This document shows positions 33,162-45,196 of a stretch of DNA of 45,196 bases, piece after piece. Origin of the DNA: a bacterium (GTDB lineage Bacteria; Desulfobacterota_D; UBA1144). The DNA is taken from contig JABILG010000011.1 of NCBI GenBank assembly GCA_018654605.1, positions 1 through 45,196 of the forward strand. Direction: 5' to 3'. The position numbers and the translations under genes are program-made. Numbering within the stretch: position 1 is the first letter of the stretch; each line of letters begins with the position of its first letter. The notes below the pieces were generated by a model. It searched no databases and was not told the DNA's origin. It saw only the letters and a program-made list of their open reading frames with translations.

Positions 33162-35108
33162 CTAAAAATTATGAAATTGATTAAGGTATATTATGTCAAA
33201 CTTATCATCTGAAAAAATAGAAAACGATTTATTGTCATCCAATATTGAACTCCAAAACTCGAAATATTCTTTTCTTGGGTAGCCCCATGGAGTAACTTTG
33301 GATTTAGGAAAGATTAGCAAGAAACCTTCCTCTACCTTTAATTTTAAGAAAAGTTTATATTCTTTAGCATTGTAAGCATTTGATGTAAAAAGAAAATAAT
33401 CAATTGGTGCGATATCGAGTTCAAAATATTGTATATAAGAACCTGCACCATAGATTATCACCTTATCTTTCGCTGCTAATATTTTTTTTAGATGATTAAT
33501 TTGTTTAACATCAGTATTAATTTTTCTTGCTTTAAAAGCTGAGTTGGATGCCAAGAATCTATATTGATTATTAATTATAGTTGGCACTCCATACTTGTTA
33601 AAAGCAAGTGGAAAAAGTAAAAGGATAATTGGCATTACCTTTATTATTTTAAATTTTGAAAATCTCTGACTAAAGGATTTGAAAAACTTCGAATTTAAGT
33701 CTATATAAATAAAAAAAAGTATTAAGAAAGAAGTGCTAACACTAATAAATGAGAGAATAGTATTTTTATAGAAACAAAAAGTAAAATTAACAATTGTTAA
33801 GAATATTAGGAAGACATATGTATTTAATTTCTCTTTTCTTATTCCTGAGATTTTAAGCGCAATATTTGAGGATAGTAGTCCCATGAACAATAGCGCTAGC
33901 CAAATTATAGAAAATTTTTGAATTTTATTTGATTGAATGGAATATTTAAGAAACTGCTTGGTCCCAATATTCTCTCCAAAGGAATAGACATAAATATAAA
34001 TGAGACTAAAGACTGTTATAAAGATTACTAATTTAATTAAGTTTTGCTTAATCCAGGAAACAAAAGCGCTTAATATATTCATTTTCGCCTCGAACAAAGA
34101 GATTACAAAAAGAGTGACGAAATAAGCTATAGAATACAGAATTCCCATGTTGAATGAAAAAATCAGTACTATTATCAATGTTGCAAATAATCTCTTTGAT
34201 TTAATGCCACAAATAGCCGCGACTAAAGCTAACAGTAACCATAAGTCAGCTCTTAACGGAGAATATTGAACAAATACGGACCCGAACTTCATATCAATTA
34301 AATAAAATCTTAAAAATACTATCGTAAAAGAAGCTAGTATTAAGATATATTTGCTTCTTATTAACAAATCTAATAATTTATAGAGTCCTATTAGGTAGAT
34401 AAAAAGAACTAAATTCAAAAAGACATAAAAATTATAAATTTCAAAACCTATCATGTCCCAAAGCGCGATAAGTAAGGGTATTAGCAGGTCATATTGAAAA
34501 TAAACTGAACTAATATCAACTTTATTTAGTATCCCCAATGCAGGAATAGCAAAGAACTCCAGATCATATTGTTGCAAAAAGCCAACAGGCAAGATGGAAC
34601 AGAAGAAAATAAGAACGATGTAAGAGTACAGCCTTCTTTTGGAATCATCTCTAACGATAGCTATATAAAATAAGCAAGTATAAAAGAAAAAAAATAGCCA
34701 AGAATTAAAATTATATAATTGATATTCTTGAAATTGCCAATAAAAATTAGAGGCTTTTAAATTACTACTTATCCAAATTGTAAGAAAAATTAAAATAAAA
34801 GAAAACAAAATATAATTTTGTAAAACATTATTCACTTTTATTAACGAAAGATCTCTTTTTCTTGTTAGGTATAAATTTAATAATATATATAAAAAAGCCA
34901 AGATAGTAAGAAGGAAGGACTCTATTCCAGTATTAGCTAAAGACCAATAATTATTAAAAGATGGAAAAAAGTCTGGATGAGGGACTTTATACATTGGAAT
35001 ATTAACTAAGAAAGGGAAAAAACCAAAAAGTACATAAATAGGTAAAATAAATATGATTGGATAATAGGCATGAGCATTAAGATTCTCGCTACTATTATCA
35101 CTATTCAT
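33162..35108 (-). CDS. Polytopic membrane protein, probable GT-C-type glycosyltransferase
   Basis: This 648-residue protein has about a dozen or more membrane helices and a C-terminal soluble part (about 515-648). The layout matches polyprenyl-phosphate-sugar-dependent GT-C transferases and Gtr-type serotype-modifying enzymes. No family motif is decisive; an acidic segment after the early helices (QQYDLEFFAIP) could be the catalytic loop. Context supports the call: a Dpm1-like GT2 and a GtrA flippase lie within 6 kb. A TATAAT (35115-35120, minus strand) ends 6 nt before the ATG, suggesting a leaderless message. A different polytopic function is possible. Confidence 0.6.
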   Translation of the reverse strand: MNSDNSSENLNAHAYYPIIFILPIYVLFGFFPFLVNIPMYKVPHPDFFPSFNNYWSLANTGIESFLLTILAFLYILLNLYLTRKRDLSLIKVNNVLQNYILFSFILIFLTIWISSNLKASNFYWQFQEYQLYNFNSWLFFFFYTCLFYIAIVRDDSKRRLYSYIVLIFFCSILPVGFLQQYDLEFFAIPALGILNKVDISSVYFQYDLLIPLLIALWDMIGFEIYNFYVFLNLVLFIYLIGLYKLLDLLIRSKYILILASFTIVFLRFYLIDMKFGSVFVQYSPLRADLWLLLALVAAICGIKSKRLFATLIIVLIFSFNMGILYSIAYFVTLFVISLFEAKMNILSAFVSWIKQNLIKLVIFITVFSLIYIYVYSFGENIGTKQFLKYSIQSNKIQKFSIIWLALLFMGLLSSNIALKISGIRKEKLNTYVFLIFLTIVNFTFCFYKNTILSFISVSTSFLILFFIYIDLNSKFFKSFSQRFSKFKIIKVMPIILLLFPLAFNKYGVPTIINNQYRFLASNSAFKARKINTDVKQINHLKKILAAKDKVIIYGAGSYIQYFELDIAPIDYFLFTSNAYNAKEYKLFLKLKVEEGFLLIFPKSKVTPWGYPRKEYFEFWSSILDDNKSFSIFSDDKFDIIYLNQFHNF

Positions 35109-35218: not shown

Positions 35219-35974
35219 ATGAAAAAGAAAATAATTATATTGTCTGGCGGTTTTGATCCTATACATTCTGGTCATATATCTATGTTTGAAGAAGCACGAG
35301 AACTTGGAAGCATTGTAGTGTTGCTAAATTCTGACGAATGGCTTATAAGAAAGAAAGGTAGCTTTTTTATGGACTGGGAAGATAGAGAATCAGTTGCAAA
35401 GAATATTTCTGGAGTTATAGATGTTCTTCATTTTAATGATGACGATGGAACGGCGGTTCAAGGTATCGTCGACGTAGCTAAAAAATATCCTAATCATGAT
35501 ATTTCATTTGCAAATGGCGGAGATAGAAACAAGCAAACAACTCCTGAAACTAAATTCTGCTCTAAAAATGGAATCAACGAAGTATTTAATGTTGGTGGAG
35601 GAAAGACTCAATCTTCTAGCAACATCTTAGACAAATGGAGGGACTCACCTATGCCCCGTCCTTGGGGAGAATGGCATTCATACAAAGAATTTGATATAGA
35701 TAATGCTAAAGCAAAATTAAAATCTTTAATTGTAAAACCTGGCCAAAAACTATCTTATCAAAAGCATAATCAAAGAAGTGAACATTGGTTTATAATAAAA
35801 GGTAATGCAACTATTGTTTTAAATGATAAAGAGTATACCGTTAAAACCTTTAAACATTTTGATATAGCAGTAAACGAATGGCATCAACTTGTAAATAACG
35901 GCTCCGAAGAACTCATAGTGGTTGAGGTTCAATACGGTAAAGCATGTGTTGAAGAGGATATAGAAAGAAAATAA
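35219..35974 (+). CDS. Nucleotidyltransferase fused to a mannose-6-phosphate-isomerase-type cupin
   Basis: Two catalytic-looking domains share one 251-residue chain. Residues 1-125 are a cytidylyltransferase-like (HIGH-superfamily) domain with SGGFDPIHSGHISM, where His16-x-x-His19 forms the HxGH nucleotide-binding motif, as in RfaE/HldE and TagD. Residues 147-245 are a cupin resembling the C-terminal domain of type II phosphomannose isomerases (RPWGEWHSYKEF, LSYQKHNQRSEHWFIIKG, EWHQLVNNGSEEL, VEVQYGKACVEEDI), with His183, His189 and His222 as likely metal ligands. The ATG at 35219 follows a TTAGGGA ribosome site; a longer TTG start at 35162 is rejected. It should isomerise and activate a sugar phosphate, but the sugar is unknown. 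GT2 follows 1 nt later. Confidence 0.85.
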   Translation: MKKKIIILSGGFDPIHSGHISMFEEARELGSIVVLLNSDEWLIRKKGSFFMDWEDRESVAKNISGVIDVLHFNDDDGTAVQGIVDVAKKYPNHDISFANGGDRNKQTTPETKFCSKNGINEVFNVGGGKTQSSSNILDKWRDSPMPRPWGEWHSYKEFDIDNAKAKLKSLIVKPGQKLSYQKHNQRSEHWFIIKGNATIVLNDKEYTVKTFKHFDIAVNEWHQLVNNGSEELIVVEVQYGKACVEEDIERK

Positions 35975-35975
35975 A

Positions 35976-36662
35976 TTGAAATCCTTAAATATTGTCATAC
36001 CTTGCTTAAAAGAAGCAGAGAATCTTAAATTCCTGCTTCCTCAAATTATCGAAATTTTAGATTCTACTAACGTTGAATATGAAATCATTATTGTTGATAG
36101 CTGTACACCTATGGATGATACCCCAGATGTATGCTCAACATTTCAGAATGTTACTTATGTAAACACCCTAGGTGTAGATAATTATGGAAGTGCTGTCAAA
36201 ACAGGAATTAAGACAATATCTAAAGAGTTCACATTGTTTATGGATGCAGATGGATCTCATAACCCTAAATTAATACCTAAGATAATGGAAAGAATCGGGG
36301 AAAACGGTATCTGCATAGCGTCTAGGTATTGTTTGGGCGGAAAAACAAACGATAAAGTCACCTCGATTTTCTTATCAAAACTTTTAAACTTTGTTTATTC
36401 ACTCATTTTAAGAATTAATTGTTCAGATTGGTCAGGCAGTTTTAAAATGTACGAGACTAAGCTGTTAAAAGGAATTAATCTCAAATCTGAAAATTTTGAT
36501 ATAATCCCCGAAATTGTATTTAAAACGACAAAATTAAACAATATAAAAGAAATAAGAGAAGTTCCGTACACCTTTGATACTAGGGTTCATGGTAAGACTA
36601 AAAGGAAACTAAAAACTTACTTAGATTTTTTTGTAACACTGCTTAAATTAAGATTCAGCTAA
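35976..36662 (+). CDS. Dpm1-like family 2 glycosyltransferase
   Basis: This 228-residue GT2 enzyme starts NIVIPCLKEAENL and has the metal-binding D90-A-D92 in LFMDADGSHNPKL. SRYCLGGKT and a GSFKMY-type acceptor motif (DWSGSFKMYETKLL) match dolichyl/polyprenyl-phosphate sugar synthases. It lacks C-terminal membrane helices, like Dpm1 itself. It likely loads a sugar onto a polyprenyl phosphate at the inner membrane for the GtrA/GT-C proteins. The start codon is TTG, 1 nt after the previous stop, with no ATG available before the conserved fold begins, so initiation depends on coupling. The end abuts gmd on the other strand. Confidence 0.85.
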   Translation: MKSLNIVIPCLKEAENLKFLLPQIIEILDSTNVEYEIIIVDSCTPMDDTPDVCSTFQNVTYVNTLGVDNYGSAVKTGIKTISKEFTLFMDADGSHNPKLIPKIMERIGENGICIASRYCLGGKTNDKVTSIFLSKLLNFVYSLILRINCSDWSGSFKMYETKLLKGINLKSENFDIIPEIVFKTTKLNNIKEIREVPYTFDTRVHGKTKRKLKTYLDFFVTLLKLRFS

Positions 36663-37673
36663 TCAATCTAAGTTAAGCTCATATTTAATCATCATTTCAG
36701 CTAACGACTCAAATTTAGTTTTAGGTTTCCAACCTAATTCTTTACTTGCTTTAGAGCAATCGCCAAGAAGCAAATCAACTTCAGCAGGCCTATAAAATTC
36801 CTTACTGCAGACAACTATCTTCTTCCCGCTATCCTTTGCAATAGCTACAGTATCTACTCCTTCTCCTATCCACTCAAAAGCAATCCCTGCATGATTTAAA
36901 GTAACCTCAACAAACTCTCTAACAGAATGGGTCTCGCCCGTTGAAACAACATAATCATCAGCTTTATCTGCTTGAAGCATTAGATGCATAGCCTCTACGT
37001 AATCACCTGCAAAACCCCAGTCTCTTTTGGCTTCTAAGTTACCAAGCACTAATTGGTCTTGCTTCCCCTTCTTAATTCTAGCTATAGCTTTAGATATCTT
37101 CTTTGTAACGAATTCATTTCCTCTCAAAGGTGATTCATGATTAAACAGTATTCCACAACAACCAAATATATTATATGATTCTCGATAATTCATAGTAATA
37201 AAATGCGAATAAACCTTGGCTACTCCATATGGGGACCTAGGGTAAAAAGGAGTCTCTTCATTTTGAGGAGTTTCCATGACCTTCCCGAACATTTCTGATG
37301 ATGATGCTTGATAAAACTTAGTTTCTGGGGAGATTGATCTTAAAGCCTCTAGTACTCTTAAAGTTCCCAACCCGGTTACTTCTGCTGTATACAAAGGAGT
37401 ATCGAAACTGGCACCAACGAAACTTTGCGCCCCAAGATTGTAAACTTCATCAGGGCTTACTGATTCTATAACATTTCTTATGTTGGTCTCTTCTAATAAT
37501 TCGAACTCTTTAATCTTAACATCCTTCTCAACACCTAAGATTTCAAGTCTTTCAGTATTATAATTAGAATTCCTTCTTGCAGCACCATAAACTTCGTATC
37601 CTTCTTTCAATAAGTGCTGCGCTAGATATGCTCCATCTTGTCCAGTAATACCTGTTATTAAAGCTTTTTTCAT
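36663..37673 (-). CDS. gmd: GDP-mannose 4,6-dehydratase
   Basis: Gmd converts GDP-mannose to GDP-4-keto-6-deoxymannose, the precursor of fucose, rhamnose, perosamine and other deoxy sugars. The 336-residue extended SDR has ALITGITGQDGAYLAQHLL with the NAD(P) glycine motif (about 7-14). The catalytic Ser126-Glu127 is in QASSSEMFGK, and Tyr149/Lys153 are in YPRSPYGVAKVYSH. SPLRGNEFVTKK and the C-terminal RPAEVDLLLGD are typical of Gmd. It is somewhat shorter than E. coli Gmd (~373). A good Shine-Dalgarno (AAAGGAG) and a TATAAT promoter precede it. No Fcl/Rmd/Per partner is certain in the window. Confidence 0.93.
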   Translation of the reverse strand: MKKALITGITGQDGAYLAQHLLKEGYEVYGAARRNSNYNTERLEILGVEKDVKIKEFELLEETNIRNVIESVSPDEVYNLGAQSFVGASFDTPLYTAEVTGLGTLRVLEALRSISPETKFYQASSSEMFGKVMETPQNEETPFYPRSPYGVAKVYSHFITMNYRESYNIFGCCGILFNHESPLRGNEFVTKKISKAIARIKKGKQDQLVLGNLEAKRDWGFAGDYVEAMHLMLQADKADDYVVSTGETHSVREFVEVTLNHAGIAFEWIGEGVDTVAIAKDSGKKIVVCSKEFYRPAEVDLLLGDCSKASKELGWKPKTKFESLAEMMIKYELNLD

Positions 37674-39093: not shown

Positions 39094-40854
39094 TTATTTT
39101 AAAAATTTAAGACAAACTTCTTCTTCCTCTTTTGTTAAATCTGGATACATTTTATGGAGTGGATTTGACTCCATAGAGCCTGTTCTTGTTACCCTGCTCT
39201 GTATCTTGGGAAAGTAGGTTTGATTTGGATCAACCGGAACTACGAATACAGATGGACCAATAGAATTAAAATATCTTAAAAAAGTTTTATCCGTATCAAA
39301 ATCTTTTTTTAACTTATAAGATTTAAGTCCCCACGCAAAAAACAACTTTTCCCAATTAGGAAATCCTAAGCCGCTTTCAATATCACAACCCATATATTCG
39401 CCATCAAAATAATTCTTTTGAGTCATCCTAATTGAGGCATATCCAGAATCATCAAATATAAAAGTTTTTATATTAAGGTTATTAATCATCATCGTGCCAA
39501 TTTCTTGAAGATTTTGTGAAAAACCTCCGTCTCCTTCTAAATGGATTATTCTTTTATTATTATTAGCGAATGATGCTCCAATTGCAGCCGAAAGACCATA
39601 TCCCATGGCTGCCAGACCTTTATTGGATACAATCTTTTGACCAAATTTTGGAGTAAAAGCTTGCTTAAAGGCTGTAAAAACCCCTCCACTGCTACATGGT
39701 ACAAGGACATCCTTTGGCCTTGAAATATAAGATAGCTTTTGCATTAAAAGGTAAGGTGATACATATTTATTGCTGGTTTTATTCCTCTTATCTATAAGAG
39801 GAAAATCCTTTTTTACTTTTTTGCTAAATTTAATCCATTCGGAATTAGAGCCAAGGTTCTGACGTAGTATCCGAGGTAGAAAATTGTTGACATCAAATGA
39901 ATAAGGCCATTTAACTTTTGGGTGACCTTTCTTAAGCTCTCTCATGTCTATATCGACCTGAATTATATCCCCTATAGGAATAAATTCCTTCCAATTGAAA
40001 CCTGTCTGCTGCAAACCAAGTCTTGTACCCAATGCTAAAAGCAAGTCCGACTGCTGAATAATAATATTTGCATGTCTTTGACCCCAAGTGTTAGGCATAC
40101 CAAAATAATTTTTACTTAGAGGCGAAATCCTATCCATCCCATTCCAAGTTGTAAAAATAGGAATGTCTAATTTAGAAAATTGTTTTCTCAGATCATAAGC
40201 AACATCTCGACTCACACCCCCTCCAATTAACATTGAAGGTCTTTTAGATTTTCTTAGCAGAGCAGAGATTTGATTAACCTGAGTTTTAGTAGCTATATTT
40301 AATATTTGCTTCTTTATTTTTGTAGATGTTTTAACATCCTTGAATTTAGAGGCTTGAACATCTAAGGGTATCTCAATAAAGATTGGACCTTTTCTTTCAA
40401 CAATATCTATATTTAAAATTGATTTTAATTTTTCAAAACCTATTGGCTTTTCTATTCTAAGGGCTTTTGAAGTTATAGGTGTTACTATCGATACCCCATC
40501 TATTTCTTGAATTCCTCTTTGGATAACTTCACCGTTTGCTAGGTCATCTGTCTTAACTTGTCCACCAATAATTAACAGATCTCTGCTTTCTAAGTAAGCT
40601 CCACTAATTGCGGTAACAATATTAGTCAATCCTGGTCCAGCAGTGACTAAAGCTATAGCTTTTTTATTCTTATCCGATATTTCATTAAAATATTCGGCTG
40701 CTATACCTGCAGCAACTTCGTGTATAACTGGTATGCATTTGAAATTATTTCTAAAACTGTCTAGCAAGTGCATTATGTTGCCACCAGAAACAAAGAAACA
40801 GTGTGTATAGTTTAATTTCTTTAGCCAAAGAGCCAATTGATCACTATATTTCAT
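39094..40854 (-). CDS. Thiamine-diphosphate enzyme, acetolactate-synthase-like (possibly YerE-type)
   Basis: This 586-residue ThDP-dependent enzyme has the three-domain ALS/POX fold. The catalytic Glu46 is in VIHEVAAGIAAEYF, ALVTAGPGLTNIVTAISGAY is the N-terminal signature, and the ThDP/Mg motif is in HLEGDGGFSQNLQEIGTM followed by INNLN. The start used is the ATG at 40854; an in-frame TTG at 40866 is less likely. ALS-like ThDP enzymes in O-antigen loci, such as YerE, attach two-carbon branches to keto sugars, which would fit here. The other options are a cyclitol-dione hydrolase (IolD-like) or a plain decarboxylase. No regulatory ALS small subunit is nearby, arguing against branched-chain amino-acid synthesis. 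Confidence 0.85.
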   Translation of the reverse strand: MKYSDQLALWLKKLNYTHCFFVSGGNIMHLLDSFRNNFKCIPVIHEVAAGIAAEYFNEISDKNKKAIALVTAGPGLTNIVTAISGAYLESRDLLIIGGQVKTDDLANGEVIQRGIQEIDGVSIVTPITSKALRIEKPIGFEKLKSILNIDIVERKGPIFIEIPLDVQASKFKDVKTSTKIKKQILNIATKTQVNQISALLRKSKRPSMLIGGGVSRDVAYDLRKQFSKLDIPIFTTWNGMDRISPLSKNYFGMPNTWGQRHANIIIQQSDLLLALGTRLGLQQTGFNWKEFIPIGDIIQVDIDMRELKKGHPKVKWPYSFDVNNFLPRILRQNLGSNSEWIKFSKKVKKDFPLIDKRNKTSNKYVSPYLLMQKLSYISRPKDVLVPCSSGGVFTAFKQAFTPKFGQKIVSNKGLAAMGYGLSAAIGASFANNNKRIIHLEGDGGFSQNLQEIGTMMINNLNIKTFIFDDSGYASIRMTQKNYFDGEYMGCDIESGLGFPNWEKLFFAWGLKSYKLKKDFDTDKTFLRYFNSIGPSVFVVPVDPNQTYFPKIQSRVTRTGSMESNPLHKMYPDLTKEEEEVCLKFLK

Positions 40855-40895
40855 GTTCAAAAACAATTATACACAAATTAATTTCTTTTACTTGG

Positions 40896-40924
40896 TTGTA
40901 TATTATTTTTAAAAATATTAAAAT
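40896..40924 (+). promoter_or_regulatory. Promoter of the NeuB-like gene
   Basis: On the plus strand TTGTAT (40896-40901) and TAAAAT (40919-40924) are spaced by 17 bp. Six bases separate the -10 from the ATG at 40931 and there is no Shine-Dalgarno, again the leaderless geometry. The 76-bp gap is shared with the divergent ThDP gene, for which a TATAAT is visible 11 nt before its ATG. Confidence 0.4.
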
Positions 40925-40930
40925 ATCCCT

Positions 40931-42079
40931 ATGAATATTAAAGAAAACCAGATTTTTAATAACCTATTTGTCCTTGAAATAGCAAATAACCATTGGGGCT
41001 CCTTAGAAAGAGGAATCAAAATAATAAATACATATGGAAGAATTGTTAAAGAAAATGGAGTCAGAGCAGCGATAAAGTTGCAATTTAGGGATCCCAAAAC
41101 TTTTATTCACAAAGATTACCAAGATTCTGAAGATATAAGATATATAAAAAAAACCAAGCAAACTTACATGTCCGAGAAAAATCTAAAAAAGCTTATCAAT
41201 CAAATTAAAAGAGTTGGAGCTTTGACTATGTCCACTCCTTTTGATGAAGAGTCAGTTCAAACAATTAAAGATTTTGATCTTGATTTAGTAAAGATTGCCA
41301 GCTCTGATATAACTGACTGGCCTTTAATAGAAAAAATTGGAGGTCTTAAAAAGCCTACTATTGTTTCCACTGGTGGAGCTCAAGAAGTTGACTTAGATAA
41401 TATAGTTAATTTCTTTTTCAATAGAAAGATTCCGCTAGCTCTTAATCATTGCATTTCTCTTTATCCAACAGAAGATTCCGAATTAGCTCTTAATCAAATT
41501 AAATACCTCCGGGATAGATATCCAGAAAATATTATTGGGTTTTCTTCTCATGAATATAACGATTGGTCATCCTCAATGCTTCTGTCGTATGCTATGGGAG
41601 CAAGAACTTGGGAGAGGCATGTAGATATAGACGAAGGAGATTTTGAGGTTTCAAACTATTGCTCATTACCTGAGCAAGTAGACCATTGGTTCAAATCTTA
41701 CTATAAGGCTAAGGAGATGTTAGAGGCACCAGAATATTCCAGAAGATCCATATCTAAAAGAGAAAAAGAATATCTTGACTCATTGACTAGAGGGATTTAC
41801 GCAAAGAAGAATATTAAAAAAGGCTATAAATTTACTCAAAAATCTTTTGAAAATGATTTTTACTTATCAATTCCATTAAACAAGGGTCAAATTTCATGTA
41901 ATGAAATAATAAATGATGTCACTCTTACTAGTGATATTAAAAAAGATGATATTCTTTCGATAAATCATATTGATGGGCCATATAACGAAAATAAAAAACT
42001 TAAAGCTAGAATTGAAAAAAGAGGGTATGAAAAGTCAAAGGTAGTAAACCTAGAAACCTCTATTAATAAAATCTCTTAG
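40931..42079 (+). CDS. NeuB-family synthase (sialic-acid-synthase-like)
   Basis: NeuB enzymes condense phosphoenolpyruvate with an amino sugar to give nonulosonic acids. The 382-residue protein has an N-terminal TIM barrel (about 15-285) with LEIANNHWGS, IKLQF, STPFDEESV, ALNHCISLYPT, and metal His residues in GFSSHEYND and WERHVDID. A C-terminal SAF-like domain (about 295-355, RGIYAKKNIKKGYKFT) follows. Several usual NeuB strings are altered (EIANNHWGS for EIGxNHNGS, GFSSHE for GYSDHT). The substrate may therefore not be an N-acetylmannosamine. No CMP-sialic acid synthetase (NeuA) is present. It overlaps the FGGY gene by 30 nt tail to tail. Confidence 0.85.
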   Translation: MNIKENQIFNNLFVLEIANNHWGSLERGIKIINTYGRIVKENGVRAAIKLQFRDPKTFIHKDYQDSEDIRYIKKTKQTYMSEKNLKKLINQIKRVGALTMSTPFDEESVQTIKDFDLDLVKIASSDITDWPLIEKIGGLKKPTIVSTGGAQEVDLDNIVNFFFNRKIPLALNHCISLYPTEDSELALNQIKYLRDRYPENIIGFSSHEYNDWSSSMLLSYAMGARTWERHVDIDEGDFEVSNYCSLPEQVDHWFKSYYKAKEMLEAPEYSRRSISKREKEYLDSLTRGIYAKKNIKKGYKFTQKSFENDFYLSIPLNKGQISCNEIINDVTLTSDIKKDDILSINHIDGPYNENKKLKARIEKRGYEKSKVVNLETSINKIS

Positions 42080-43342
42080 TCCTATTAAAGTTAAGTCATG
42101 CTCATTTTTTTTAATTCTTACTTTCCTTTTCATTTTCTTTTCTATAATATCCGCAATAACTGGAACTTTATTAGGAATTCCACCACCCAATATGATTCTA
42201 GAGTTTTTACTTATTGAATCTTCCAGATAAGACAAATATTGGTTACAAAAAGATATCATCAAGGATGCAAGAAGGACTTTGGGTGTGATTCTAGAATTGC
42301 TAGAGGTTAAATCATCAATTTGTTCAAAATATTCACTTTCAGAATCTAAGTATAAATCAAACTTAATATCTATATTAAATCCTTCTAAATCTTCATAAGT
42401 TAATTGAGATAGCTCTTTCCAGAAATTATTATTTGAATTCAAAGTATCATAGAATTTGCACCATGAATTTAAGAATCTTCCTGCGGGTATATGTGTTACA
42501 CATTTTAATTTTTCATTATTAAAAAAGGGCCTTTCTTCTAATCCAAAGGTAGAATTATTTCTAGAATTAGAAATAATTTGTGATCCAGTTCCAATATTTA
42601 TAAGTATTTCATTTTGGGCTAGATTTGATCCAAGAAAAGCTGCTTGCAAGTCTCCAAAACCCAAATATAGGTTATATTGATTACTTTTATAAGCAATAAA
42701 GCCTAGGGGCTTTTGATAGTCATCGATCGGACTCGGAAAAGAAATTGGCAAATCAATTCCTGTTATATCCAACGTGTCTTCTTTTGCACCTAAATCTGTA
42801 TAAAAACCACTTGAGTGCAGAAGTGTTTTACACGCCAAATTATAATGGTCCCCTAGTTCGCGGCATATAAGCTGAGGTAAAGTCAAAAAGGTACTATTAG
42901 TTCCTAATTCATTATTTAAAGACCTTGCTAAGATGTTAACTACTGGAAGTCCAGCCCTTGAAATCATTCTTGTTTTGCTGTAAAACCCACGATTATTAAG
43001 TATCTCTAACGCACTATCTGTTGATTTTTCTTTAAATCTCCAGCTATAATAAAATGTGCTATTAAAACTATCTTGTTCAAGCAAGCAAAAACCATGCATT
43101 TCAGAGCACAAATAGATTTTGAGATCACAATCTTTTCTTAAAATAGAGATTTTATCTGAGTAATAGTCTAAATGTAAGATTAAGGATTTGGAGAAAAAAG
43201 AACCAGGAATTTTGCTGTAGTTTCCATATTTTATAAATGATCCTGCAGATTCAAATAAAGCAATAGGTTGATCATCGATAGAATTATAAAGTATCGATTT
43301 AATTCTAGAAGCACCATAATCGATTAATAAAACTTGTGACAT
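42050..43342 (-). CDS. FGGY carbohydrate kinase, sedoheptulokinase-like
   Basis: This 430-residue FGGY-family kinase has the N-terminal ATP site LLIDYGASRIKSILYN, CSEMHGFCLLE (80-90), catalytic Asp231 in LGFGDLQAAFLG, INIGTGSQIISNS (phosphate loop), and the C-terminal ATP motif ILGGGIPNKVP. The SEMHG and GDLQ segments resemble sedoheptulokinase (SHPK/CARKL-type) more than glycerol or xylulose kinases, but this is by-eye resemblance. It overlaps the cyclase gene upstream by 1 nt, so kinase and cyclase are coupled. A product of sedoheptulose-7-phosphate would suit a sugar-phosphate cyclase or a heptose branch. Confidence 0.8.
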   Translation of the reverse strand: MSQVLLIDYGASRIKSILYNSIDDQPIALFESAGSFIKYGNYSKIPGSFFSKSLILHLDYYSDKISILRKDCDLKIYLCSEMHGFCLLEQDSFNSTFYYSWRFKEKSTDSALEILNNRGFYSKTRMISRAGLPVVNILARSLNNELGTNSTFLTLPQLICRELGDHYNLACKTLLHSSGFYTDLGAKEDTLDITGIDLPISFPSPIDDYQKPLGFIAYKSNQYNLYLGFGDLQAAFLGSNLAQNEILINIGTGSQIISNSRNNSTFGLEERPFFNNEKLKCVTHIPAGRFLNSWCKFYDTLNSNNNFWKELSQLTYEDLEGFNIDIKFDLYLDSESEYFEQIDDLTSSNSRITPKVLLASLMISFCNQYLSYLEDSISKNSRIILGGGIPNKVPVIADIIEKKMKRKVRIKKNEHDLTLIGLRDFINRGF

Positions 43343-44490
43343 TACAACTCTTTCAAAAGTAATTGAACGGAATGATTTATAATTTTAGTTGAAGTTTGAC
43401 TTAAGTTTAGTTTACAAAAATTTATATAGCCTATTTTTGTTGGAACAGCTATTTTGAGGATTTTGCCTTGTGCCTTTTTATCGTTAATTAAATAATCATT
43501 AACAGTGGATAAGTTAATATTAGATAGTTTTTTTATAAATCTAGGCAACAATAACTTTTTCGCTAAATCTAATATATGTTTATCTGAGTCTTTGCTTAAG
43601 CCAAATTTCTTTAAAGAAATCTTATTCTCGATTAACAAGCCAATAGTTATGGCGGTACCATGAGGAATATAAAATTTAGACATGGGTTCGATTGCATTCC
43701 CGAGGCTATGTCCATAATTTAAAGATCTCCTTTCATTGTTCTCAAACTCGTCATTCTCGATAACAGATTTCTTTATTAAAAGAGATGTTAATATAATTCT
43801 AGTTAATGCAGAACGATCCATTTGAATGGCTTTGTCTATGTTAGTAGAGAAACTTTCTAAAGACTTTCTTCCACCAATAATGGACAATTTTAATGATTCA
43901 CCTAACCCAGATAAGACATCCTTTTTAGGAAGAGTAGTAAGAAATTCTGTATTCAGTATTACTTTGTGTGGAGAAGAAAAAAGAGCATATAGATTTTTAA
44001 TATTCTTATAATTTAAAGCTGTCTTACCACCAATACAGCTATCTGTCATAGATAAAAGAGTTGTAGGAAAATATATCCACTTAATCCCTCTCTTGTAAAT
44101 TGAACATGAAAATGCTCCGATATCTTGCACTATTCCTCCACCTACTACAATCACAGTAGAAGATTTTGTTATATTATTTTTTTCTAAAAAAGTTGTAAAT
44201 TTAATACATTCATTAATATTTTTTTTATTTTCTTTAGCAACGAACTTATAAATTAATAGACTCTTTTTTTTAATCTTAGAACCATAAATCTTATATATAT
44301 TGGAGTCTATCAATAAAACCGGGGTCTGTGAAATAGAAATTATCTTATTAATACTTTTTTCGACTGATTCACCAATAAGACTTAATTCATAGTCCTTAGG
44401 CGAAGAATGAATTTTAAGCTTTTTTATTACTTTTTTAGTATTATCAATCTCAAAATTAAACTTATTTCCGTCAATAAAAAAAGATTGCAT
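43342..44490 (-). CDS. 3-dehydroquinate-synthase-like sugar-phosphate cyclase
   Basis: This is a member of the DHQS/EEVS/DOIS sugar-phosphate cyclase family, 382 residues. NAD and active-site strings are VVGGGIVQDIGAF, TTLLSMTDSCIGGKT (Lys156), KNLYALFSSP, Glu198/Lys201 in SGLGESLK, and Zn ligands His261 and His277. It retains Lys240, Arg254 and Asn258, which in true DHQS contact the substrate carboxylate and phosphate. The normally invariant second His of GHxxGHAxE is Asn265 (GHSLGNAIE). Coupled to the FGGY kinase and adjacent to the SDR, it probably serves the glycan locus rather than the shikimate pathway, although a plain AroB role cannot be excluded. Confidence 0.82.
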   Translation of the reverse strand: MQSFFIDGNKFNFEIDNTKKVIKKLKIHSSPKDYELSLIGESVEKSINKIISISQTPVLLIDSNIYKIYGSKIKKKSLLIYKFVAKENKKNINECIKFTTFLEKNNITKSSTVIVVGGGIVQDIGAFSCSIYKRGIKWIYFPTTLLSMTDSCIGGKTALNYKNIKNLYALFSSPHKVILNTEFLTTLPKKDVLSGLGESLKLSIIGGRKSLESFSTNIDKAIQMDRSALTRIILTSLLIKKSVIENDEFENNERRSLNYGHSLGNAIEPMSKFYIPHGTAITIGLLIENKISLKKFGLSKDSDKHILDLAKKLLLPRFIKKLSNINLSTVNDYLINDKKAQGKILKIAVPTKIGYINFCKLNLSQTSTKIINHSVQLLLKEL

Positions 44491-45171
44491 TTAATCTTCC
44501 CAGAACCCACCAGCAGTAAGACCACCATCTATTACCAACTCTTGACCAGTTATATAAGATGACTTTGAAGACAATAAGAACATTACTGCTTCGGCAATAT
44601 CTTTCGACTTCCCCAGCCTTCCTGCGGGTATCTTCTTAATTATCTTACTTAAAGAATTATTTGAATTATTATTTCTTGTCATCTTTGTATCTATAAACCC
44701 AGGAGCAATGCTGTTTACTCGTATTCGATAAGTTCCGAGTTCTATGGCAAGATTTTTCATAGCACCATTTAGAAAATGTTTAGAGCTCGAATATAGGAAT
44801 CTTTTATCCCTTCCAAAAGAACCAAATAGAGATGAAATAATAATAATTGAGGAATTACTATTTGTTGGCATTTTGCTTATTAGGTTTTTTAAAATAAAGA
44901 CAAATGACTTAAAATTTACATCATAAGAATAATCAAAGTCTTTGTCTTTTAAATTTAAAAACTTTTTAGGAGTATTTGTTGCAGCTACAAAAATTATTGA
45001 ATTAAATTTTTTATTATTTTTTAATAAGAAATTATCTACCGATTCCTTAGATGACAAATCTAAAGTACTAGATGTAGTGCCAGTAACAACATAACCTTCT
45101 TTCTTTAAATAGGTCTTAATTGTGGCCCCAATATCACTTTTTTCCCCAATTAATAATGCACTTTTAGCCAT
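44491..45171 (-). CDS. Short-chain dehydrogenase/reductase of the glycan locus
   Basis: This SDR of about 226 residues starts at the ATG at 45171; a TTG at 45177 is an alternative. It has the N-terminal LLIGEKSDIGATI (a weaker G-x3-G-x-G than usual), a catalytic Ser in IIIISSLFGSFG, Tyr and Lys in YSSSKHF, and the C-terminal SAPGFIDTKM and GQELVIDGGL. It abuts the cyclase gene with no gap, forming SDR-cyclase-kinase as one transcription unit. It could reduce or oxidise the cyclised product or the keto sugar. The upstream end of the unit lies at the window edge, so further genes may precede it. Confidence 0.85.
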   Translation of the reverse strand: MAKSALLIGEKSDIGATIKTYLKKEGYVVTGTTSSTLDLSSKESVDNFLLKNNKKFNSIIFVAATNTPKKFLNLKDKDFDYSYDVNFKSFVFILKNLISKMPTNSNSSIIIISSLFGSFGRDKRFLYSSSKHFLNGAMKNLAIELGTYRIRVNSIAPGFIDTKMTRNNNSNNSLSKIIKKIPAGRLGKSKDIAEAVMFLLSSKSSYITGQELVIDGGLTAGGFWED

Positions 45172-45196
45172 GCTCAAAACTCACTATATCTTAAAT

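Follow-up and report, generated by a model that had tools for sequence, protein, structure and literature searches.

We describe a 251-residue bacterial protein in which a nucleotidyltransferase of the HIGH superfamily and a cupin of the type-II phosphomannose isomerase (PMI) family are joined in one chain. The window, a stretch of 45,196 nucleotides, is part of the genome of a marine Candidatus Dadabacteria bacterium. The fusion is confirmed as real, far beyond chance. With modest confidence, we propose that it is a bifunctional enzyme making GDP-mannose, in which a domain with the fold of HldC and glycerol-3-phosphate cytidylyltransferase (GCT) replaces the ManC domain; both the nucleotide and the sugar are assigned from context. 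Whether a HIGH-superfamily GDP-mannose pyrophosphorylase has non-orthologously replaced the ManC domain on the PMI cupin that ManC carries, in Dadabacteria and another small-genome lineage and with relatives in marine viruses, we judge to be evenly balanced. GDP-mannose is a central activated sugar whose synthesis is usually recognized by ManC-type genes. If the proposal is true, an unrelated second fold would carry out the final step, and the pathway may exist in genomes in which it has been scored as absent. The protein would then be the first GDP-sugar synthase of the HIGH superfamily as far as known, and the PMI cupin would have been fused independently to two unrelated nucleotidyltransferases. 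The proposal also offers a function that can be tested for phage genes at present labeled as heptose or glycerol-phosphate enzymes.

Architecture and conservation of the fusion

The gene occupies 35219..35974 on the forward strand, with an ATG start codon at 35219 and a stop codon at 35972-35974 (251 codons), as defined by the open reading frame and its translation, Pfam and NCBIfam matches, orthologues and an AF2 model (mean pLDDT 89.5 over the whole fusion). Residues 1-143 (35219..35647, forward strand) form the nucleotidyltransferase domain and residues 147-250 (35657..35968, forward strand) the cupin. Pfam CTP_transf_like (PF01467) matches residues 8-91 with 33.5 bits against a cut-off of 21, and this half also carries the HxGH motif and a C-terminal SSS-type motif; MannoseP_isomer (PF01050) matches residues 147-250 with 78.1 bits against a cut-off of 23.6, and the metal and catalytic residues of that family are present. 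The original prediction of a one-chain fusion of these two domains is confirmed by the single 251-residue frame and by both Pfam scores, and the motifs on which it drew are in place: DPIHSGHISM with H16 and H19, RPWGEW at 147-152 and SEHWFIIKG at 187-195. The best partial NCBIfam matches are TIGR01479 at the cupin end and rfaE_dom_II over the whole N-terminal domain, both far under cut-off.

Proteins of the ManC/AlgA/WbpW/PslB group (TIGR01479) share with the fusion the family of the C-terminal PMI cupin, all motif residues of that cupin, an association with phosphomannomutase and Gmd, and the overall reaction proposed here. In contrast, the N-terminus of ManC/AlgA is a GT-A-fold pyrophosphorylase of ~350 residues in a protein of ~470, whereas that of the fusion is a HIGH-superfamily nucleotidyltransferase of ~143 residues in a protein of 251. 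The fusion scores 77 bits to TIGR01479 (cut-off 373) in a match covering only positions 359-460, and membership in ManC/AlgA was rejected: the cupin agrees, but the N-terminus belongs to PF01467 and not to the GT-A-fold PF00483. The earlier claim that a nucleotidyltransferase of a fold other than that of ManC is joined to a type-II PMI cupin is thus supported. No description of a fusion with this architecture was found in open-licence papers. The protein belongs to PF01467 and PF01050 but to neither ManC/AlgA nor HldC/HldE, and it would act as a functional analogue of ManC/AlgA/WbpW.

The fusion gene is carried by 7 of the 14 species of the order. Six of these copies are full length, and the seventh (G004) runs off its contig. 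Full-length, uninterrupted frames in five further Dadabacteria genomes encode proteins 71-93% identical to that of the window, and conservation among the Dadabacteria copies takes in the initial methionine, the linker and each of the two halves, so the frame contains no frameshift. Full-length fusions at 39-45% identity were found in more than 20 marine viral contigs of IMG/VR, and one at 40% identity in a distantly related 0.6-Mb genome (G276). In the collections of phages and plasmids, no complete fusion was found in isolated or named phages or in plasmids, with no match covering 80% of the query. A frameshift or assembly error uniting two genes, the artefact against which the original prediction had cautioned, was rejected and has a negligible probability: independent Dadabacteria genomes, viral contigs and G276 share the same uninterrupted frame, and no point in favor of an artefact was found.

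Catalytic signatures of the two halves

The cupins of 28 fusions were aligned with those of 13 ManC-type proteins. Without exception, the 28 fusions and the 13 ManC proteins share residues S179, Q181, H183, R186, E188, W190, H222, E236, G240, E245 and D247. The first five of these lie in cupin motif 1 (35753..35782, forward strand), and H222 (35882..35884, forward strand) is the metal-ligand position of cupin motif 2; positions 185 and 189, usually histidine in ManC, vary among the fusions. According to PMC9602691, from which the roles of the motif 1 residues are also taken, the conserved set includes the phosphate-binding, ring-opening and zinc-binding residues named for PMIs, together with the counterpart of the catalytic R408 of P. 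aeruginosa. That paper presents the type-II enzyme of cyanophage S-SCSM1, a phage-encoded PMI cupin whose S/Q/H/R residues match those of the fusion; in the passages searched, no nucleotidyltransferase fused to it is described. The AF2 model matches the Thermococcus phosphomannose isomerase (7zvy) with a TM score of 0.78 by target. Because the PMI residues are conserved and the fold matches a phosphomannose isomerase, the cupin likely catalyzes phosphomannose isomerization, as judged from alignment and model. A cupin devoid of metal ligands, the second finding that would have told against the original prediction, is not what the alignment contains, as these positions are kept.

It could be argued that the cupin merely binds or regulates and that the nucleotidyltransferase alone is catalytic, or that the sugar is not the same for the viral as for the bacterial proteins. 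Stand-alone nucleotidyltransferases of the same clade exist with no cupin, and the genomic context of the viral genes differs, both of which fit such a reading. However, S179, Q181, H183, R186, E188, H222 and E236 are invariant across the 28 fusions as in the ManC cupins, and the invariance of these seven isomerase residues suggests selection for catalysis; we consider the alternative improbable. Both catalytic signatures are invariant in an intact two-domain protein, which would favor a bifunctional GDP-mannose enzyme.

In the nucleotidyltransferase half, the HxGH active-site motif (H16-S-G-H19; 35264..35275, forward strand), a KKG stretch, an F-x-NGGDR motif and the C-terminal SSS signature (S132-S134; 35612..35620, forward strand) are invariant or nearly so. 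H16, G18 and H19 are invariant in all fusions and in the cyanophage stand-alone relatives, and the SSS motif is invariant in the 28-row alignment. A fold search with the whole protein was dominated by the cupin, so this domain was modeled alone (pLDDT 89.9, pTM 0.86). Its best PDB folds are Burkholderia HldC (5xf2) and glycerol-3-phosphate cytidylyltransferase (1coz). HldC activates manno-heptose-1-phosphate, a manno-configured sugar-1-phosphate, with ATP; as the closest solved fold, it counts in favor of the GDP-mannose reading.

The resemblance to HldC and HldE domain II (RfaE) extends to the fold (TM 0.75 by query), the HxGH motif and the overall domain length, and activation of a manno-configured sugar-1-phosphate is what we infer for the fusion as well. 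In contrast, HldE domain II is fused to a PfkB kinase and the domain studied here to a PMI cupin. The tree places the fusion domains together with some stand-alone relatives in a clade separated from HldE domain II with 100/100 support; with this and a score of 50.2 bits to TIGR02199 (cut-off 181.5), membership in HldC/HldE domain II was rejected. TagD/GCT proteins share the HIGH superfamily and the fold, but the fusion scores only 34.5 bits to that family (cut-off 165.4) and is linked to sugar-phosphate rather than teichoic-acid genes.

These comparisons bear on a heptose version of the pathway, in which the cupin would isomerize sedoheptulose-7-phosphate, the HldC-like domain would activate manno-heptose-1-phosphate and Gmd would act on GDP-heptose. 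Among curated profiles, rfaE_dom_II indeed comes closest across the full domain, the closest fold is HldC, and the phage relatives are annotated as heptose enzymes. Against this stand the low rfaE_dom_II score and the separate clade given above, the absence of HldE from the window's genome in a PF01467 search, and the retention of all PMI residues in the cupin. The product of the neighboring gmd gene, moreover, fits GDP-mannose dehydratase over GDP-heptose dehydratase by 477 to 112 bits. We therefore think that a heptose pathway is unlikely to be correct.

The nucleotide used by the domain cannot be read from its fold. In NCBIfam, the domain matches only adenylyl- or cytidylyltransferases, and the nearest solved folds, HldC and glycerol-3-phosphate cytidylyltransferase, use ATP or CTP. 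This favors a reading in which the domain uses CTP or ATP to make CDP- or ADP-mannose or a similar product, while the GDP-mannose for Gmd comes from an unrecognized or unassembled enzyme. To our knowledge, no member of the HIGH superfamily makes a GDP-sugar, the known members using ATP or CTP, and a search of open-licence papers found nothing relevant on a HIGH-type GDP-mannose pyrophosphorylase or any other GDP-sugar maker of the superfamily.

Genomic context and the GDP-mannose pathway

One base past the stop codon of the fusion begins a GT2 glycosyltransferase gene (35976..36662, forward strand; PF00535) whose product resembles dolichol/polyprenol-phosphate mannose (DPM) synthases; its best PDB match is the Pyrococcus DPM synthase 5mlz (E=1.6e-19), the next family following at 1.6e-7. 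It is followed on the reverse strand by gmd, encoding GDP-mannose 4,6-dehydratase (36663..37673; TIGR01472, 475 bits, cut-off 415), with the Aquifex GDP-mannose dehydratase 2z1m as its best solved match (E=2e-142). Each of the six intact Dadabacteria loci has the fusion, the DPM-synthase-like GT2 and gmd side by side, and UBA1144 carries the trio on one strand. Within the order, gmd is present in exactly the six genomes with intact fusion loci and in none of the seven members without the fusion; because the genes are linked in one locus, this co-occurrence counts as one association and not as independent events. Independent support for the linkage is provided by G276, in which a large glycosyltransferase cluster includes the fusion, a GT4 glycosyltransferase and gmd in that order. 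The Gmd of G276 (345 residues, 47% identical to that of the window) matches PF16363 with E=1e-115 and scores 394.8 bits to TIGR01472, slightly under the 415 cut-off.

A TIGR01479 search confined to the order found no ManC nucleotidyltransferase domain; its matches are the cupin of the fusion and one further cupin-only match in one genome. The window's genome encodes four PF00483 proteins: RfbF (glucose-1-phosphate cytidylyltransferase), GlmU and two short proteins of the LicC/inositol-phosphate type. These genomes are metagenome-assembled, that of the window being 92% complete, and a ManC could be unassembled. A profile search of the window's genome recovered only one MannoseP_isomer cupin, that of the fusion, and PF01238, a weak probe that matched only 2 of 14 control genomes, revealed no type-I PMI C-terminal domain in the order. 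The steps from fructose-6-phosphate to Gmd are all covered if, and apparently only if, the N-terminal domain of the fusion makes GDP-mannose.

As proposed, the cupin would convert fructose-6-phosphate to mannose-6-phosphate by metal-bound enediol chemistry, an activity its residues suggest. A separate AlgC-like phosphomannomutase/phosphoglucomutase (PMM/PGM), the gene for which is present elsewhere in the genome, would convert this to mannose-1-phosphate. The HIGH domain, taking the place of the GT-A-fold pyrophosphorylase domain that ManC carries, would then turn mannose-1-phosphate and GTP into GDP-mannose and pyrophosphate, most likely by transfer of GMP; this step is drawn from context and is the weakest of the scheme. 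Surface glycan synthesis would draw on this GDP-mannose through the neighboring Gmd and polyprenol-phosphate mannose synthase-like GT2. The original idea of isomerization and activation in one protein probably holds as a pairing of the two activities. It does not hold as a continuous route through the protein alone, since phosphomannomutase must act in between.

The use of CTP or ATP by the domain gains further room from the two short PF00483 proteins, which have no assigned substrate. However, it would leave the co-inherited Gmd and DPM-synthase-like GT2 with no visible source of GDP-mannose in six genomes, and the same linkage recurs in the distant G276; we regard it as a possible but clearly less probable explanation. 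The CDP- or ADP-linked sugar that the different fold had been taken to imply likewise finds no support in the context, where both conserved neighbors use GDP-mannose and the search of the order yielded no ManC. For the GDP-mannose reading itself, it counts as an adverse point that genomic context is a measure of association and not of specificity.

Other genes of the window and genome are recorded here as observations. One of the short LicC/inositol-phosphate-type PF00483 genes (L040/L041) precedes an apparent CDP-alcohol phosphotransferase gene. Diverging from the fusion gene, 33162-35108 encodes a membrane-protein-like product of 648 residues with no Pfam or NCBIfam match that is kept within the genus; our guess is a GT-C-type transferase using a polyprenol-phosphate sugar. 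A cluster adjoining the locus (39094-45177) encodes a TPP-dependent acetolactate-synthase-like enzyme, a NeuB-like synthase, an AroB-related putative sugar-phosphate cyclase (TIGR04425 match under cut-off), an SDR and, at 42050-43342, a protein with no family matches. This unusual combination is kept in one congener (L033/L048).

Viral fusions and stand-alone relatives

The viral fusions occur in at least three genomic settings. In one, the neighbors are UDP-glucose-dehydrogenase-like and UDP-glucuronate-decarboxylase-like genes; in another, they are GTP cyclohydrolase I and a class-I aldolase-like gene. No gmd was found near the viral fusions, the sole candidate being a 25% match in 1 of 19 records. 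The viral neighbors look like they point to UDP-sugars, and host pathways may supply the viral enzymes, or their sugar may be a different one. Viral fusions away from gmd, and stand-alone members of the clade in non-mannose contexts, are counted against the GDP-mannose reading. Because the viral fusions have no gmd nearby and the stand-alone relatives lie in unrelated contexts, we restrict the claim of GDP-mannose synthesis to those bacterial fusions that are linked to gmd. Viral contigs L088, L093-L100 and L105, which carry the fusion, share a conserved block comprising GTP cyclohydrolase I, a radical-SAM-like protein and a 501-residue protein with no family match, to which some of them add the class-I aldolase-like gene.

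Stand-alone nucleotidyltransferases of cyanophages (phrog_7878; S-SSM7, P-TIM68) belong to the same clade, with ~40% identity to the domain of the window. They differ from the fusion in having no cupin and in lying between gp43 and uvsX, inside the replication module of the phage (L146:4995-5459, L147:4992-5453, L149:4992-5453). In the tree they nest among the viral fusions, and thus they have probably lost the cupin. Their annotations as heptose kinase/adenylyltransferase or glycerol-3-phosphate cytidylyltransferase are probably erroneous.

In other bacteria, stand-alone nucleotidyltransferases of the clade are found in unrelated, non-mannose contexts. Three of these, from larger genomes (L160, L162 and L187), adjoin by eye a Gfo/Idh-type oxidoreductase, a TIM-barrel isomerase-like protein and an aminotransferase, which suggests another sugar or a polyol as their substrate.
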